A DNA stretch of 64,000 nt, taken from contig JADFFQ010000002.1 in assembly GCA_022568135.1 (NCBI GenBank), forward strand, positions 1 through 64,000, read 5' to 3'. The number at the start of each line of letters is the position of its first letter. Positions within the stretch are counted from its first letter, which is position 1. The notes under the pieces were generated by a model. The model saw nothing but the letters and a program-made list of their open reading frames with translations, ran no database searches and was not told the origin of the DNA. Shown piece by piece: positions 14,245-26,510 of this stretch. The translations under genes were made by a program, and so were the position numbers. Source of the DNA: Planctomycetota bacterium. Its GTDB lineage: Bacteria; Planctomycetota; Phycisphaerae; Phycisphaerales; SM1A02.

Positions 14245-15849
14245 CTATGCCATCAACGGTTGCGGCTCTTGGGGCTGATGGGTCAAGGGCAACTCGACGA
14301 AAAACGTCGCCCCGCGACCGGGCTCGGAGACCAGCGAGACGCCGGCGCCGAGAAGTTCCGCCAGCTCACGGCAGATCGCCAGCCCAAGACCGGTGCCCGC
14401 ATGTTCACGGGTATGGCCGGCGTCGAGCTGGCGAAACTTCTCGAAGATCGCGTCCTGCAAATCGTAGGGAATGCCCGGCCCGGTATCCGTGACGGCCAGT
14501 CGAACCCCGGGACTCTTGTCCTGGCGGGTGAGGCGATTGGCGGAAATGGTCACCGTGCCGCCAGCCGAAGTGTACTTCAACGCGTTGGAGAGGAAGTTGT
14601 ACAGAATCTGCTGCAGCTTGCCCGGGTCCGTTTCGATCATCGGCAGATTCCGTCCAACCTGAGTCTCTAACGTGATCTGCTTGGCCTCCGCCTGGGGTTT
14701 CATAATCGCCACCAACCCCTCGATCAGGTCACTGATACTGGTCGGCTCGATGTTGACCACCATCCGCCCGGCTTCGATCTTCGCCATTTCGAGCAGTTCA
14801 TTGATCATCTCCAGCAGAGATCGCCCGCTGGTAAGGATGTTCTGGACATATCGAAGTCGCTTGGGGTCAGCATGGCGATCGCCCCGCGCCAGCTCGTCCA
14901 GCACGTCGGCAAAGCCGAGGATGGAGTTCAACGGCGTTCTCAGCTCATGGCTGACATTCGCCAGGAACTCGCTCTTGAGCCGGTTGGACTCATACAGCCC
15001 AATGTTCGCTTGGGAGAGTTCCGAGACCTTCAGGTCAAGACTTTCGTTCATCGATCGAAGTTGAGCCTGGCTCTGCTCGACGCGATCGAGCATGGTGTTG
15101 AAGCCCTCGGCCAGTTGTTCGAACTCATCGCCGGTTCGGATCTGCGAGCGAATGGTGAGATCCCCGTCTTGGACCTTCTCAGTCGTTTCGCGGAGCCGGC
15201 GCACCGGCGAGAGAATCAGCTTGGTCAGGATCAGATAGAACACCAGCACGGCCAGGAGCCCCGCGACGATCCACGCAGCGATGGTATAGATGTCGTTGAG
15301 AAGCAACTGGCCTTCTGCAAACTCGCTGGTGCGGCCGATGACCAGCACGGCACGGATCGGGTCGGCCCCGGCCGGATCAGAAGGCTCGCTCGAGAACTGA
15401 ATGCCCAAGGCCCGCAGCTGTGATTCGCGCAGCACCCGGGCATAGCGATACACGGTCTTTCCGGAAACGGTATGGGTGTCTGTATGCTCAGTAACCTGCT
15501 CGTCCTTCTGGAACCGCCGAAGTGCGGCAGCGATGAACGGGTCGCCGTCTTGGGGCGTGTCGATCTCATCGATCTTCACCATTGTCATCCGCAGCAAAGC
15601 GGCGGTGTCGGGATCATCGAACAGCTCGTTGACCCGCAGAGGCGGCCCGTCGGGAAGCTCAACGGGATTGAGTTGAATCTGCTTCGCGAGCCAGGCGTCG
15701 GCCAACTGGCGAGCCGCTTCAAATTGTCCCTCCCGCACCAGCATCCGCGTGCGAACCCATGGCACACTCAGCGCTGCGGCAAGAATCGCCACGACCGCGA
15801 AGCCGAAGACCAACTGGCACTTGTTAGCGAGACTGATTCCGGCAGCCAT
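14245..15849 (-). CDS. Membrane sensor histidine kinase
   Basis: A 534-residue kinase with an N-terminal TM helix, a periplasmic sensor region of about 160 residues and a second TM near residues 190-212. These are followed by a HAMP domain (LSPVRRLRETTEKVQDGDL), a short coiled coil, HisKA with SHELRTPLNSILGFADVL carrying the phospho-accepting His, and HATPase_c with N-box NFLSNALKYT, DTGPGIP and GTGLGLAI. All catalytic boxes look intact. No response regulator lies beside it, so it is an orphan whose partner and signal are unknown. Probable site: inner membrane. Confidence 0.92.
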   Translation of the reverse strand: MAAGISLANKCQLVFGFAVVAILAAALSVPWVRTRMLVREGQFEAARQLADAWLAKQIQLNPVELPDGPPLRVNELFDDPDTAALLRMTMVKIDEIDTPQDGDPFIAAALRRFQKDEQVTEHTDTHTVSGKTVYRYARVLRESQLRALGIQFSSEPSDPAGADPIRAVLVIGRTSEFAEGQLLLNDIYTIAAWIVAGLLAVLVFYLILTKLILSPVRRLRETTEKVQDGDLTIRSQIRTGDEFEQLAEGFNTMLDRVEQSQAQLRSMNESLDLKVSELSQANIGLYESNRLKSEFLANVSHELRTPLNSILGFADVLDELARGDRHADPKRLRYVQNILTSGRSLLEMINELLEMAKIEAGRMVVNIEPTSISDLIEGLVAIMKPQAEAKQITLETQVGRNLPMIETDPGKLQQILYNFLSNALKYTSAGGTVTISANRLTRQDKSPGVRLAVTDTGPGIPYDLQDAIFEKFRQLDAGHTREHAGTGLGLAICRELAELLGAGVSLVSEPGRGATFFVELPLTHQPQEPQPLMA

Positions 15850-15929
15850 CGGTCTACCCAGGGTTGAGCAAGGACATCGGCACCATAGTCAAGACACGCC
15901 TCGCTCACCACTTCCTTCAGCCGCAGCGG

Positions 15930-18971: not shown

Positions 18972-21530
18972 TCACCCCAGGCCGATCCACCCTGAGATCA
19001 TTGGCGAGAACTTGACGATCAGGCCGGCGAAGACCACTGAAACGATCGCGATGAGCTTGATGAGGATATTCAGAGACGGGCCTGATGTATCTTTGAAGGG
19101 ATCGCCGACGGTGTCGCCCACGACGCTGGCCTTGTGGGCGTCCGAGCCCTTGCCGCCGAGGTTGCCCTTTTCAATCCACTTCTTGGCGTTGTCCCAGGCC
19201 CCGCCGGCATTGGCCATGAAAATGGCCACGGCAAAGCCGCTGGTCAGCCCGCCGACCAGCAAACCCATCACGCCGCCGACGCCGAGGATCAGACCGACCA
19301 CGATCGGCACAATGATGGCTAGCAGCGACGGGATGATCATCTCCCGCTGGGCCCCGGCGGTCGAGATCTTTACGCACTCGGCGTAGTCCGGGTATTGATG
19401 GCCCTGAACATCGACCTTGATCGGCCAAGTGGTGGGATCGGCAATGTCTGCTTCGCTCATGCCCTGCTTCCTGAAGGCATCGCGCATGATGGCGAATTGA
19501 CGCCTCACCTCGTTCATCATGCGATACGCGGCCCGGCCGACCGCTTGCATCGTCATCGCGCAGAACACGAACGCCAGCAGCACGCCGAGGAATATCCCGC
19601 CGAGCACCCGCGGGTTCATCAGCGAGACGTCGTAGAACGCGAGGACCTGCTCAATTCTCGCCCGATCGGCCGGGGCTATCTGGACGGTGTATCCGCCCAG
19701 TTCGACCGCGAAGGTGTTGGTCATCTCATCGAGCCCGCTGTCAAAGGCGAATGTCTGGCCGACGGGGAGGGATTCGCTCAGCGCTAATCGCATCTTGCCG
19801 GTGGCCAGGAGCAGGCCGCCGAAGAGAGCATGATCTTCGTCTCGGCTGGCGATCGTGAACAGCCCGGAACCGCGGTATTGCGCCACATACGCGCTGGTGT
19901 GTCCGTCCAGCAGCGCCGCGGCGTCAGTCCCATCCTTGAGCTGGCGGTTGAGATTGTATTGCACCACGGAAATATACGCGGCTAACAGCGCCAGAGCGGT
20001 CAGCGCCGCCGAGCCGATGGCGAAGCCTTTGCCGGTGGCGGCGGTGGTGTTGCCCAACGCGTCGAGCATGTCGGTGCGCTCGCGGACGAACGGCGGTTGA
20101 TTGGTCATCTGGGCGTTGCCGCCGGCGTTGTCCGCGATCGGGCCGTAGGCGTCCGTGGCCAGTGTAATGCCGAGTGTGGAGAGCATCCCGACGGCCGCGA
20201 TCCCCACGCCATACAGGCCCAGCAGGAAGTTCTGCCCGCCGCCAGCGAAGTTGAACGCGCAGATGATCGCCACGACGATCGTTGCAATCGGCACCCAGGT
20301 GGAAATCATGCCAACCGAAATGCCGGAGATGATGACCGTTGCCGGTCCGGTCTGGGCCTGCTGGGAGATCAACTGCGTCGGTTTGTGCTCGTAGCTGGTG
20401 TAGTACTCGGTGGACCAGGCGATAACCAGGCCCGCCGCCAGGCCGGTGACGATCGATCCCCACAGGCGCAGACCCGCGATGCCGAATCCCGTCAACGGCC
20501 CAACATCTCTCAGCAGGAGGTAGAACAGCCCGGCGGCGGCAATGGCGATGATGCCCGAGGCGGTCCACACGCCCAGGTGCAGGCTCTTGAGCAGTTGGGT
20601 GAACGAGGCGCCTTCTTTGGCCCGGACGACGCCGATGCCCGCGAGCGAGGCGATGATGCCGACGCCGGCCAGGGCCATTGGCGCCACGGCGAGTTTGACC
20701 GCCAACGAGTCGGCCTGGTCGCCGCTGGCCAGGCTGAATGCCGACGCTGCCCCCAAGGCCATCGAGGCGAGGATCGAGCCGTAATAACTTTCGTACAGGT
20801 CGGCCCCCATCCCCGCGACATCGCCGACGTTGTCGCCCACGTTGTCCGCAATGGTGGCGGGGTTGCGCGGATCGTCTTCAGGAATACCGGCTTCGATCTT
20901 ACCGACGAGGTCCGCTCCCACATCAGCGGCCTTGGTGAAGATGCCGCCGCCGACTCGGGCAAACAGCGCCTGCGTCGAAGCACCCAGGCCATAGCTCAGC
21001 ATGATGGTGGTGATGTCCACCAGCGTCATTGATTCCGGGGCGAAGGCATTCCATAGCCCGAACCACACCGACACATCCAACAGGGCGAAGCCCACCACCA
21101 CCAGGCCCATAACCGCTCCAGCCCGGAAGGCGACGGTCAGCCCTTCGTTGAGCGACTGCTTGGCGGCAAAGGCAGTCCGGGCCGAGGCGTGGGTCGCCAT
21201 CCTCATCCCAAACCACCCGCAGGTGCCCGAGAACAGACAGGCGAAGAGCACACCGACCGGCGTCATCAAACTCTGGATGCCCGTGATTCCCAACAAGATG
21301 AGGATGGCCAGCAGCACCACGAATACCGCAGCAACGACCTTGTACTGTCGCTTCAGATAGGCCATCGCTCCATCGCGGACCGCTTGGGCGATCTCGATCA
21401 TCTCCGGCTCGCCTTCGGAATAGGACATGACCTTTCGGCTGTACCAGAAGGCGGCGGCCAGCGCTGCCAGAGCGCTGGTGGGGGCAATGAAATACAGGCT
21501 GGGCAGGCTGGCGAGCGTAACGGCGTTCAC
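18972..21530 (-). CDS. hppA: Membrane-bound ion-translocating pyrophosphatase
   Basis: Hydrolyses PPi and pumps H+ and/or Na+ across the membrane. The 852-residue product has the signature DVGADLVGKIEAGIPEDDPR, NVGDNVGDVAGMGADLYESY, and the second PPi site near DAYGPIADNAGGNAQM. GNTTAATGKG, with Ala and Gly at the two diagnostic positions, predicts the K+-dependent subclass. The start is GTG at 21530, preceded by GGAGAAGG; the open frame extends to 21749 but without signal. It is much longer than the usual 670-720 residues because residues about 522-633 form an extra hydrophilic domain between two membrane helices. Confidence 0.93.
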   Translation of the reverse strand: MNAVTLASLPSLYFIAPTSALAALAAAFWYSRKVMSYSEGEPEMIEIAQAVRDGAMAYLKRQYKVVAAVFVVLLAILILLGITGIQSLMTPVGVLFACLFSGTCGWFGMRMATHASARTAFAAKQSLNEGLTVAFRAGAVMGLVVVGFALLDVSVWFGLWNAFAPESMTLVDITTIMLSYGLGASTQALFARVGGGIFTKAADVGADLVGKIEAGIPEDDPRNPATIADNVGDNVGDVAGMGADLYESYYGSILASMALGAASAFSLASGDQADSLAVKLAVAPMALAGVGIIASLAGIGVVRAKEGASFTQLLKSLHLGVWTASGIIAIAAAGLFYLLLRDVGPLTGFGIAGLRLWGSIVTGLAAGLVIAWSTEYYTSYEHKPTQLISQQAQTGPATVIISGISVGMISTWVPIATIVVAIICAFNFAGGGQNFLLGLYGVGIAAVGMLSTLGITLATDAYGPIADNAGGNAQMTNQPPFVRERTDMLDALGNTTAATGKGFAIGSAALTALALLAAYISVVQYNLNRQLKDGTDAAALLDGHTSAYVAQYRGSGLFTIASRDEDHALFGGLLLATGKMRLALSESLPVGQTFAFDSGLDEMTNTFAVELGGYTVQIAPADRARIEQVLAFYDVSLMNPRVLGGIFLGVLLAFVFCAMTMQAVGRAAYRMMNEVRRQFAIMRDAFRKQGMSEADIADPTTWPIKVDVQGHQYPDYAECVKISTAGAQREMIIPSLLAIIVPIVVGLILGVGGVMGLLVGGLTSGFAVAIFMANAGGAWDNAKKWIEKGNLGGKGSDAHKASVVGDTVGDPFKDTSGPSLNILIKLIAIVSVVFAGLIVKFSPMISGWIGLG

Positions 21531-21752
21531 GTTGAACCTTCTCCGGGCACACCGCCGGGCCGCGGCGGCAATCAGGGTTTCGGGAGCTTGTGACGATGCT
21601 CGGATCCCCGGCGTGCAACCGAAGAATCCAGGTCGGCCATCAACGACCGCCGGTACGTTAGCGTGAACCCAAGGAGTTTGCAGGCTCGCAAGATGATCTC
21701 GACGGCGGTTCGGGCCCCGCCGCAAGACCGGCAGGCCGGGGCTCGACAATTC

Positions 21753-21980: not shown

Positions 21981-22435
21981 GGGACGGGCGCCTTGCTCCA
22001 GCTAAATGAACGCACCATTAGATCGAAAACTATCCGTCTTGGCAAGCCCCCAGCCAAGGCCCAATCGATCACCTGCCGCCACATCGAGCGGAGGGTTCTC
22101 ACGAGGCGCCCTGATTCAGCGGGTGAAGCACCGTGCATGGCCCGCGGCCGGCGACCCGCTCACGTCGGGGTGGGCGGCGGCGATCATGCAAACATGGCGG
22201 ACCGCCTCGCTCAACGAGACCTGATGGACCACGCGCAGCGATCAGCCTCGAGGCCAGCACGCCCTGGAATATCGGAACCGCCTGACTCACGATCGGCGAG
22301 GGCCCGTCGCCCGCGTAGGCCCACCAGATTCCCCGACTGGTGATTCTTCGCAGATAACTGGGCCAAACCGGCTGATCTCGTGGGCCGCTCCGGGCGATAA
22401 CTATTCCAGGAATCTCAGGCCAAGGAGCCGCTGGT
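21981..22435. other. Divergent intergenic region between rpsU and the PilZ fusion gene
   Basis: The 455 bp contain the rpsU promoter near the left end and AAGGAG (about 22421) near the right end. A minus-strand frame runs through the region and into the next gene, but it shows no recognisable domain, so I do not call it. No RNA gene was seen. Confidence 0.4.
22017..22045 (-). promoter_or_regulatory. Predicted sigma70-type promoter for rpsU
   Basis: On the minus strand: TTGCCA (complement of 22040-22045), a 17-bp spacer and TCTAAT (complement of 22017-22022), 37 bp upstream of the rpsU start. Confidence 0.6.
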
Positions 22436-24919
22436 GTGTCAAAGGGCGACGCGAGCAAAGGTATCAACAACCCGCCGACGACCGAGCAGGAGGCGGCGAA
22501 GGGCCTGACCCAGACGATCCAGTCATTGGTCGAAGAATCCAACCGCTCCGCCAGCCGGCTTGAAGAGATGATCAATCTCACCCGGCGCACCAAGACCCAG
22601 ATCGCCGCCGCTTCAGCGCGTCTCCAGCGGCGCCTCCGCCCCCAGGCAAACCGGCACAAGGCGCCGCAGGATCGGACCGCGGTAAGGAAGCCGGCAAACT
22701 CCGAGCCGCCAGCCCGCCAGCGGGCCTCTCCACCAGCGAAGATCAAGCCACATCATCCGGCCGCTGACTTCACCGCGCTGCTGAGCGCCGGCCTTCGGCA
22801 ATGCGAGGAGTATCTGCGCAAGTTCATCAAAGTGCTCGTCGAGCAGGCGCCGGCCATCACCAGGATTAGCGAAGCCGCCAGAGTGCAGGTATCGCTGGTC
22901 GCTCACCGGGCCGCCCGCGGCGCCAAGCAATTCGCGCCCAAGCTCAGCCTCAAACGGCTCAAGACCCAAGCGATGCAAAGGCGAAGTCGCATCCAGGGCC
23001 TGCTGGCTTCAAAGCGATCGCTCGAATCCAAGGTGTCGGCGTTGACCGTCAAATGTGAGCGACTGAAGAGGGAGCGGTCGGCGGCCAGGGCTGAGGTCCG
23101 CGAGCAGACGATACTGCTGGCGTCAAAGGAGACGCTCGAGGAGCAGGTGGCCGAGCTGACCGCCAAGTGCGAGCATCTCGACGCAGCACGAAATACCGCA
23201 ACCACCTGGCTCACAACGGCGGAAGCCGAGGTCCGCGACCAGAGAAAGCAGTTGGCTTCCAGCGAGGCGCTCCAGGAGCGGTTCGCCAAGCTGACCGCCA
23301 AATGCGGACACTTGGCCAAGGAGCTGGCGGAGGCGAAGGCCCAGCTCAGCGCTCAGAGCGAGCTGTTGGCCGCCAAGGGGGTGCTGGAGGGCCGGTTGAC
23401 CGAGCTGACCGCCGAACGCGAACAACTGAAAAATGAGCGAGCGGCGGCGGAGGCTGAAGTCCAAGCCAAGACCAACCTACTCGCGTCCAAGGAGGGACTC
23501 GAGGAACAGTCGGCCCAGTTGACCTCTGAGTGTGAGCAACTGAGAAATGAGCGGGCGGCTACGGAGGCTGAGGTTCAAGCCAAGACCAACCTGCTCGCGT
23601 CCAAGGAGGGACTCGAGGAACAGTTGGCCCAGTTGACCGCCGAACGCGAACAACTGAAGAATGAGCGGGCGGCGGCGGAGGCTGACGCCCAGACAAACAT
23701 CGAGACGCAGGTGCTCAAAGAGGGACTCGAGCGCCGACTGACCGAGCTGACCGCCGAATGCGAACAACTGAGAACGGCGCAAACGGAAGCGGTGGTGGAG
23801 GCCCAAGCGAAGACCAGCCTGCTTGCGTCCAAGGACGGACTCGAGCGCCGACTGACCGAGCTGACCACCAAGTGCGAACAACTGGAGAAGGAGCGGGCGG
23901 CAGCGAAGGCCAACGTCCACCCCAACGGCCTGGAGGCGATCACCCAGGCATTGTCTGCGCCGGTCGACGCCGTGATCAGCACGATCGATCTCTTGCGAGA
24001 GACAAGACTCGATGACCAGCAACGGCAACACCTCAGGGCAGCCGACTCATCCATCGCCGCCTTGCTCAGCCTGCTCGATTGCGTGGCGAATCTGCCAAGA
24101 ATCCTGGACGGCGGTCTCGAACTTGAAACAACGGAGGTAGACCTTCGACAGACGCTCAAAGACACCGTCAGCATGTTGGCCCCCGTTGCGAACAACCGGG
24201 GACTGGAGCTCACCTGCGAGGTCGAACCCGACGTCTCCGCCTTGGTTCAGAGCGACCCGAAATGGCTTCGGCAAATCCTCCTGTACCTCACGAACCAGTC
24301 AATCCAGTTTGCCTCACAGGGTAAGGTGGTGATTCGCGCTGCGGTGGAGGAGATGACGGATGCTACCAACACGATACGGTTTGCCGTGCACGTCACGAGT
24401 ACAGCGGTTTCGCGGGAGACATTGGATCGAGCGTTCCCCTGGCACCGTCACGCGAACGGGCCGGCAGCCTCCAACCACGACGGGGATCTCGCCTCGGCCA
24501 TGGTGAGGCTTGTAGAGCTGCTGGAAGGCAAAATGGGCGTCGAGCGACAGGACAATGGCACACTAGCAATCTGGTTTACAATTGCGTTTGACACGGCCCA
24601 CAAGCTGGGCGACGCCCGGCGGGCCTCCGGACGGTTGCGGCAGGAAGCGCTGGATTGCAACCTCGGGGCGGTCCTCGACCTTTCGCTGGGAGGGATGCGG
24701 GTACAGTGCAATCGACCCCCGAAAGGCGAGATCGATGTCGAGCTGATGGGCTCGGAGGTCAAGCTCAGACTCCGCGCCCAGGTTGTCTGGACCAGGCGCG
24801 TTGGCTTTCGCAAATATGAGGTCGGGCTGAACTTCCTCCGCGTTCCTGCGGAGACGATCAAGCAACTGACTCGGATCTCACTCAACCACCGGGTACGCCG
24901 CTCCTTCGGCAGCGTCTGA
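22436..24919 (+). CDS. Coiled-coil pseudo-histidine kinase fused to a PilZ domain
   Basis: The 827-residue soluble protein starts with GTG at 22436, with AAGGAG some 10 nt upstream. Residues 1-170 are basic, Ala/Pro-rich linker and helix. Residues about 175-495 are a long coiled coil built from 38-residue units (LLASKEGLEEQ..LT.ECEQL), some nearly identical. Residues about 500-700 follow a HisKA/HATPase_c layout (ALSAPVDAVISTIDLLRETR, SDPKWLRQILLYL), but the phospho-acceptor His is replaced in SAPVD, the N-box reads LTNQSIQF and no DxGxG box is present, so it should be inactive. Residues about 722-825 form a PilZ domain with RxxxR (RASGR) and DLSLGG, the motif for binding c-di-GMP. Likely a c-di-GMP responsive scaffold; output unknown. 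Confidence 0.8.
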   Translation: MSKGDASKGINNPPTTEQEAAKGLTQTIQSLVEESNRSASRLEEMINLTRRTKTQIAAASARLQRRLRPQANRHKAPQDRTAVRKPANSEPPARQRASPPAKIKPHHPAADFTALLSAGLRQCEEYLRKFIKVLVEQAPAITRISEAARVQVSLVAHRAARGAKQFAPKLSLKRLKTQAMQRRSRIQGLLASKRSLESKVSALTVKCERLKRERSAARAEVREQTILLASKETLEEQVAELTAKCEHLDAARNTATTWLTTAEAEVRDQRKQLASSEALQERFAKLTAKCGHLAKELAEAKAQLSAQSELLAAKGVLEGRLTELTAEREQLKNERAAAEAEVQAKTNLLASKEGLEEQSAQLTSECEQLRNERAATEAEVQAKTNLLASKEGLEEQLAQLTAEREQLKNERAAAEADAQTNIETQVLKEGLERRLTELTAECEQLRTAQTEAVVEAQAKTSLLASKDGLERRLTELTTKCEQLEKERAAAKANVHPNGLEAITQALSAPVDAVISTIDLLRETRLDDQQRQHLRAADSSIAALLSLLDCVANLPRILDGGLELETTEVDLRQTLKDTVSMLAPVANNRGLELTCEVEPDVSALVQSDPKWLRQILLYLTNQSIQFASQGKVVIRAAVEEMTDATNTIRFAVHVTSTAVSRETLDRAFPWHRHANGPAASNHDGDLASAMVRLVELLEGKMGVERQDNGTLAIWFTIAFDTAHKLGDARRASGRLRQEALDCNLGAVLDLSLGGMRVQCNRPPKGEIDVELMGSEVKLRLRAQVVWTRRVGFRKYEVGLNFLRVPAETIKQLTRISLNHRVRRSFGSV

Positions 24920-24980: not shown

Positions 24981-25577
24981 CTACGGGCACAGCCGCAGGG
25001 TGGTCCACCCGCCTTGATCATCTCGAGTGTACGCCACACGATCGTGGAGGCGATCCGGCCTGCCCTGCCAGAACTCGATGCAATCGAGACTCACCCGGTA
25101 CCCACCCCAGTGCGGTGGGCGGGGTACATCGCGGCCCTCGTACCGCCGCTCGATCTGAGCAACACGGGCCAGCAGCGCCGCGCGGCTCTCGATCGGCTGC
25201 GATTGCAGGCTGGCCCAGGCGCCGATTTGGGCCGAACGGGGTCGAGTGGCGAAATACACGTCACATTGGGCATCCTCCACCACAGACACCCTGCCCTCGA
25301 TGCACACCTGCCGTTGCAACGTGTCCCAGTGAAATAGCAACGCGGCGCTGGGGTTGGACTCCAGTGCCCGGCCTTTGCGGCTGATGCGATTCGTATAGAA
25401 GACCGCGCCCTGCACATCGAGACCTTTCAGCAGCACCACCCGAACCGACGGTCGGCCGTCGGGATCAATCGTCGCCAGGCTCATCGCATGAGGATTGCGC
25501 AGGTCGGTCTGTTTGGCCTCTTCGAGCCACCGGTTCAGTTGGGCGATCGGGTCGGCGGGAGGATGGTCAAAGTCCAT
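24981..25577 (-). CDS. pdxH: Pyridoxamine 5'-phosphate oxidase
   Basis: FMN enzyme that oxidises PNP or PMP to PLP, the last step of de novo and salvage vitamin B6 synthesis. The 198-residue product has RPSVRVVLLKGLD, the FMN-binding FYTNRISRKG, LQSQPIESR, and the signature EFWQGRPDRLHDR followed by WTTLRLCP. The start is placed at MDFDHPPADPIAQLNRWL; the frame is open to 25781 but the extra residues are unlike the family. It is divergent from the next gene. Confidence 0.92.
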   Translation of the reverse strand: MDFDHPPADPIAQLNRWLEEAKQTDLRNPHAMSLATIDPDGRPSVRVVLLKGLDVQGAVFYTNRISRKGRALESNPSAALLFHWDTLQRQVCIEGRVSVVEDAQCDVYFATRPRSAQIGAWASLQSQPIESRAALLARVAQIERRYEGRDVPRPPHWGGYRVSLDCIEFWQGRPDRLHDRVAYTRDDQGGWTTLRLCP

Positions 25578-25775
25578 GGCTACGATCCGCAGGCCTTGCC
25601 CGGCATTGGCGCACCGAGCCGAAAGCTCCGGTGGAGTCTGCAACAAGCCCGATACTATAAGATGCAAGGTGGTGCTGCCCGTCGGGGGGGCGCATACCGT
25701 TGAGGATGCTTGCGCTGCATGAACCGCACGGCTCCAGCAGTCGCGTAGCAAGGGCCTCGAACGAAGGTCTGGCCG

Positions 25776-26510
25776 ATGCACGAGACGCGGAACTTCTGCC
25801 TGGTGATCATGCTCATCGCCTCGGTCATCTGGGCAACTGTGGCCTGGTTCATCCTCGGTTCGGACTCTCCGTTCATCTGGTACCAGCGAGTCGCCTTGCC
25901 GGCGATCATTCTGATCTCAGCGGCATGGCTGATCTACGCCCTGAAGTTCGAGCAAAAACTGCACGACCACCTCAAGGAAGTCGTCGGAGACATCTACTAC
26001 GACGCCGATGGATTATCGTTCATGCCCATGATTCGCGCCCGCGGCACGCAGGCGGAGCTGAGTGTTTACTACCAGAATCGTTTCGAGAACCCGGTGGATG
26101 CGATCGTACACCTTCGGCCACCAGAGGAGTGCTTCATCATTCGGCCGGGGATGCGTGACGTTCACTTTGCGTTCAATGCCAAGGGTGGTGCGTTCGGAGT
26201 GATCCACCAGCCGATCGCGATTCCCGAACATTTGCAGGGTGAGCTGATCAACGTCCTGCTCGCCGCGGCAAGCTGGTACCCGCGCAGCCACGGGTCTCGA
26301 CTGCTGCGGCACGCCGGCTTGCCATGCGGCGCCCTGCTGGTGGACTGGGGCGGCGCCGCGTTCAGGACCGGCGTCCACGAAGTCTCCGGCGAGATCGAGT
26401 TGATCAACCCCGTCACGCTTCATCTGTCCATGCCCGCCGGCGTCAACTCAACCATCACCGGCAACGAAATCTGGACACAGGAGCAACTCGCCGCGGGCAC
26501 GAGTGCCTAG
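25776..26510 (+). CDS. Membrane-anchored protein of unknown function
   Basis: A 244-residue protein with two N-terminal membrane helices (CLVIMLIASVIWATVAWFIL at about 8-27, and ALPAIILISAAWLIYAL). A soluble domain of about 180 residues follows that is mostly beta-strand and includes FIIRPGMRDVHFAFNAKGG and GEIELINPVTLHLSMPAG. No enzymatic motif is seen. Its position next to pdxH appears incidental, since the two are divergent. Confidence 0.65.
   Translation: MHETRNFCLVIMLIASVIWATVAWFILGSDSPFIWYQRVALPAIILISAAWLIYALKFEQKLHDHLKEVVGDIYYDADGLSFMPMIRARGTQAELSVYYQNRFENPVDAIVHLRPPEECFIIRPGMRDVHFAFNAKGGAFGVIHQPIAIPEHLQGELINVLLAAASWYPRSHGSRLLRHAGLPCGALLVDWGGAAFRTGVHEVSGEIELINPVTLHLSMPAGVNSTITGNEIWTQEQLAAGTSA

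Follow-up and report, generated by a model that had tools for sequence, protein, structure and literature searches.

The window, that is the whole stretch of 64,000 nucleotides analysed here, carries at 22436..24919 (+) a complete open reading frame, as a first-pass annotation had placed it, which encodes a protein of 827 aa with a GTG start and a Shine-Dalgarno sequence, AAGGAG (22422..22427, +; read from the printed sequence), 8 nt 5' of the start codon. Orthologues with 91% identity in the core are found in two species of the genus (L030 and L031), the start context GVSKGD is kept in two other species of the genus, and an artefactual reading frame is ruled out by open frames of 847, 885 and 923 aa retained in three species, the step being exactly one 38-aa unit each. 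Upstream lies the gene of an H+-translocating pyrophosphatase (hppA; 18972..21749, -) and downstream the gene of a pyridoxamine 5'-phosphate oxidase (pdxH; 24981..25781, -; start codon uncertain), an order conserved across several genera in the ortholog group of the window gene, termed G1. Adjoining pdxH in the G1 genomes is a conserved hypothetical gene (25776-26510, + in the window) for about 244 aa with two apparent transmembrane helices and a weak HisKA_7TM match. Further neighbours are presumably a DUF5117-type metalloprotease and a NADH dehydrogenase. No response regulator or other partner is encoded next to the window gene, the neighbours being housekeeping genes, and an operon partner has been ruled out, with hppA, pdxH and the two-helix hypothetical as neighbours and equally uninformative surroundings in the two other ortholog groups, G2 and G3. 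An ordinary intact HAMP-HisKA-HATPase_c sensor kinase is encoded about 7 kb from the gene (14248-15888, -). Elsewhere in the same genome (L003 and C72:11682-12320), the intact kinase closest in relationship to the core, a hybrid kinase (PAS-HisKA-HATPase-REC-REC-Hpt), and a gene whose product has two PilZ domains are about 1.5 kb apart.

The protein, soluble by a hydropathy test, begins with a weakly constrained segment (residues 1-184; 22436..22987, +) comprising a weakly conserved amphipathic helix at residues ~20-70 and a subsequent basic, proline-rich linker. A coiled coil follows (residues 185-492; 22988..23911, +), 308 aa with zero prolines, built from eight units starting at residues ~189, 227, 272, 310, 348, 386, 424 and 462, and visible in the DNA as a tandem period of 114 bp with 76-85% match (TRF). 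Its hydrophobic period is 3.46 (~38/11) rather than 3.5 because 11 core positions occur per 38 residues; there is thus one stammer per 38-residue unit. The coil had initially been described as about 320 residues in 38-residue units; one of the eight units has 45 aa, the other seven being of 38 aa. Copy number is 8 in the window and 9 and 10 in the sister species, and in other genera the coil is shorter or nearly absent. With such variation between species and genera, the coil looks like a spacer of variable length and not like a defining part of the architecture. Equally, a rigid coupling of the coil to the kinase core is doubtful, since the Pro/Gly-bearing stretch NVHPNG sits between the coil and the dimerisation and histidine phosphotransfer (DHp) helices.

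The core of the protein has the fold of a histidine kinase (HK) with its motifs gone. A DHp-like two-helix segment (residues 499-563; 23930..24124, +), with helices predicted at core residues 2-23 and 29-53, is followed by a degenerate, HATPase_c-like catalytic (CA) fold (residues 564-720; 24125..24595, +) indicated by Pfam, structural model and Foldseek. As scored on a 60-row alignment, the H-box is reduced to TQALSAP (23942..23962, +; canonical SHELRTP) with Gln504 in place of the phospho-His, the N-box to LTNQSIQF (24287..24310, +) with Gln in place of the catalytic Asn, the G1/D-box to VTSTAVS (24392..24412, +; canonical SDTGIGI) with V/S/A for D/G/G, and the G2-box to DGDLASA (24479..24499, +; canonical GGTGLGL) with G/D/A for G/G/G, while the F-box Phe has become His. 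The earlier claim that phospho-His, N-box Asn and DxGxG had been lost is thus borne out, and neither profile nor alignment shows an intact His/N/G1 set. A DivL-type configuration is equally absent, as the His position holds Gln rather than Tyr and the other boxes are lost. The sequence strongly supports a catalytically dead kinase core.

Matches to HisKA (E 0.012, 16.1 bits) and HATPase_c (E 0.0066, 17.3 bits) remain below the Pfam gathering cut-offs of 26.9 and 26.4 bits in the window, and are above them in the closer relatives L032 and L067 (HATPase_c 5.9e-17, HisKA 1.5e-13). TorS and BarA are the best NCBIfam kinase models for the core; all kinase models score far under their cut-offs and no model spans the architecture. 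A phmmer search against the PDB finds GacS (7z8n; E 6e-23). AlphaFold2 predicts for the core, at pLDDT 85.6, two DHp helices, the CA fold, a flexible linker (residues ~722-731) and a PilZ barrel with C-terminal helix. In a Foldseek search this model retrieves at the top GacS (8.9e-18), RetS (1.6e-15) and the RetS-GacS DHp complex (1.0e-13), with plant phytochromes (2.2e-13) and ShkA (5.1e-12) as further matches.

The C-terminal PilZ domain with its helix (24599..24904, +) exceeds the Pfam cut-off (PF07238; E 1.3e-9, 38.7 bits vs 22.5), and the RxxxR motif RASGR (R729, R733; 24620..24634, +) and the DxSxxG motif DLSLGG (D748, S750, G753; 24677..24694, +) are both intact, as had been proposed. 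PilZ domains with RxxxR and [DN]xSxxG motifs bind c-di-GMP (PMC7288161), and the window PilZ probably does so as well. A relative of known structure was not found by sequence for this PilZ at E <= 0.01. The nearest standalone PilZ proteins carry the same subfamily signature as the fused domain. With 9 GGDEF and 17 PilZ matches in the genome, c-di-GMP can be expected to be present. The same PilZ subfamily also occupies the N-terminal end of proteins that, judged by eye, look like PAS-GGDEF-EAL proteins (L073, L077, L078, L079 and L083) in another family of the order, f6.

A search for the architecture in other planctomycetes identified a family of three ortholog groups. The best relatives of the window protein are the 91% orthologues in two species of the genus, followed by proteins with 48%, 46% and 35% identity in other genera. 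G2 proteins have the architecture TM-PAS-pseudoHK-PilZ and a conserved neighbourhood of their own, and G3 proteins TM-PAS-coil-pseudoHK-PilZ-like, with the window genome encoding one G1 and one G3 member. The G3 paralogues (L066:7252-10242 on contig C1 of the own genome, L074, L075, L076 and L081) are degenerate in both signalling modules and reach, with L081, a second family within the order. Their PilZ lacks RxxxR and DxSxxG, with mostly P (else R, S or H) at the first Arg position, E for Asp and G for Ser; for a G3 core the same fold including the PilZ barrel is predicted nevertheless (pLDDT 85.1). Of the joint order of coil, kinase core and PilZ, said by the first-pass annotation to match no known named family, the union of kinase core and PilZ stands and is covered by no NCBIfam model; the coil, absent or different in other genera, does not define it.

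Members occur in 15/181 genomes and 9/45 genera of the planctomycete family; 400 genomes from the order yielded one more outside that family (G149, type G3); the order's best kinase-only match, G145, turned out to be an intact hybrid kinase and not a dead fused member. Across the phylum, a core profile run against 392 genomes, with few candidates scored per genome, gave a full-length match in the window's own genome only and kinase domains alone elsewhere; to that extent, PilZ joined to an intact kinase elsewhere in the phylum was ruled out. Long PilZ reading frames of other planctomycete genomes contain T2SSE, HD-GYP, GGDEF or Ser/Thr kinase-like domains, and no HK core. Individual cases are a type II/IV secretion ATPase (T2SSE) with C-terminal PilZ (L151:2117-4072) and, in another planctomycete, a by-eye Ser/Thr protein kinase-like N-terminal part followed by PilZ (L149:929-2473). 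In the planctomycete genome G419, strong PilZ matches number at least 21 (34 candidates), far above the other genomes sampled.

In a maximum-likelihood tree built from HK cores, a single branch with support 100/99.9 separates all 17 fused ones from the rest, a grouping to be read with the long branches and their possible attraction in mind; G2 and G3 each form one clade, and G1 is not resolved as one. Together with the PilZ subfamily common to the members, the tree indicates that the whole family probably goes back to one fusion event with a kinase of the BarA/GacS/TorS type. H, N and G1 motifs are absent from all 18 PilZ-fused relatives examined, and all 24 kinase-only homologues examined are canonical at the H, N, G1, F and G2 sites. 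In place of the His, fused members variously have Q, S, R, T, G, D or K, so there is no favoured replacement. On the other hand, the c-di-GMP motif (R, R, [DN], S, G) is kept in 11/11 G1 and G2 members, although the remainder has diverged to ~31% identity. These counts lend support to the original suggestion of a kinase scaffold turned into a putative c-di-GMP sensor, as far as ligand binding can be predicted from motifs. With every PilZ-fused kinase examined dead and every kinase-only homologue intact, the gain of PilZ seems to accompany the loss of phosphotransfer.

What is preserved is the DHp/CA fold, stripped of its phospho-His, its N-box Asn, G1 and the greater part of G2, and the PilZ fold with both ligand motifs. 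The favoured explanation, with a probability of roughly 0.6, is a dead dimerising HK core fused to a c-di-GMP-responsive PilZ, with output by protein contact and not by phosphotransfer. The DHp helices and the N-terminal coil would form a dimer, the coil acting as a spacer or additional dimerisation segment of variable length; c-di-GMP on the C-terminal PilZ would shift this domain relative to the CA/DHp body; and the protein would deliver its output by touching a partner protein, the likeliest target being the DHp of an active kinase or a receiver domain, possibly resembling the control of another kinase by RetS or DivL. RetS blocks GacS via a heterodimeric DHp interface (PMC12148439), and the pseudo-HK DivL binds DivK~P without acting as a kinase (PMC4211667), so that both are examples of HK cores able to function in this manner. 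Against the favoured explanation speak the lack of a partner gene in the immediate surroundings and the larger number of HK motifs surviving in RetS and DivL compared with the window protein. As G3 is devoid of the c-di-GMP motif, PilZ need not bind the ligand in every member. A more far-reaching proposal, which can be put forward tentatively at best, is a phosphorylation-free two-component branch in planctomycetes, in which a dead HK family would read c-di-GMP via PilZ and rewire active kinases by DHp exchange, G3 being a pure PAS-gated scaffold.

The pattern of selection bears on the alternatives. The dN/dS ratio is 0.40-0.49 for the core, 0.24-0.35 for DHp, 0.49-0.67 for CA, ~0.3 for PilZ and 1.13 for residues 1-185, compared to 0.11 for hppA and 0.35 for pdxH. 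CA holds 33 of 51.5 nonsynonymous changes, an excess that is insignificant alone (Fisher p 0.14) and has the same direction in genus g38. PilZ is the best-conserved part also by variable residues (9/107 vs 28/157 in CA), as would be expected of a plain dimeric platform in which the dead core merely pairs two PilZ domains that themselves make the output contact, YcgR-type, without a kinase partner. The unconstrained His position and the subfamily signature shared with standalone PilZ proteins fit such a platform as well; however, a bare scaffold could dispense with the CA fold, which all members have, and the DHp, too, ranks with the more constrained segments, which leaves this explanation on the unlikely side. 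That the gene is a decaying, functionless ex-kinase, in line with the complete loss of kinase motifs, the relaxed CA and the dN/dS ratio of ~1 at the N-terminus, is hardly tenable in view of the intact frames in three species, synteny across several genera, dN/dS ratios of ~0.4 in the core and ~0.3 in PilZ and a PilZ motif that does not vary within G1 and G2.

Two further alternatives concern the ligand. The c-di-GMP motif of PilZ might be a relict with G3 as the end state, where E-L-G stands for D-x-S on a predicted PilZ barrel that is kept, and a degenerate PilZ adaptor is known from the FimX-PilZ-PilB complex (PMC7288161); the retention of the motif in every G1 and G2 member from several genera despite divergence elsewhere makes this improbable. 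Equally, a remodelled CA pocket might still bind a ligand, c-di-GMP or another nucleotide, and integrate two signals, given that the CA fold is confidently predicted and that CckA and RavS bind c-di-GMP through their CA domains (PMC6707612, PMC7288161). However, the substitutions at N, at G1 and at most G2 positions differ between members with no common new motif, and a binding pocket of this kind is very improbable.

Pseudo-histidine kinases are few and have been studied chiefly in proteobacteria, and PilZ fusions described hitherto are mostly with enzymes or transporters. Both modules and dead kinases as such are known, while a search of an open-access library brought up neither their combination nor its lineage restriction nor the strict link between PilZ fusion and loss of catalysis. 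Equally, neither PilZ-HK fusions nor PilZ in Planctomycetota were found there, which is not proof of absence. The family enables a direct test of whether conformation alone is enough for an HK core to pass on a second-messenger signal.

Among known systems, the Pseudomonas hybrid kinase RetS is like the window protein in HK subtype and fold, and an output by contact is plausible for both; it differs in having no PilZ and far more surviving HK motifs. RetS furthermore has receiver domains and another input domain. The HK-related domain of plant phytochromes, a degenerate HK module retained in a structural, dimerising role, matches in fold but belongs to a eukaryotic photoreceptor without PilZ. 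In Caulobacter, DivL has likewise lost the phospho-His with its HK core preserved and functions without kinase activity, but keeps the N, G1, F and G2 boxes and a conserved Tyr and has no PilZ, whereas the window protein has lost those boxes and its His position is unconstrained. ShkA equally has an HK core under control of c-di-GMP through an adjoining domain (PMC7010744), yet is an active kinase with the ligand on a pseudo-receiver rather than on PilZ. In CckA and RavS, c-di-GMP meets an HK core within one protein, as predicted here, but these are active kinases with the ligand on CA. PilZ fused to GGDEF, EAL, HD-GYP or BcsA, finally, represents the same ligand module, with a cyclic-di-GMP enzyme or a synthase as the partner instead of a dead kinase.
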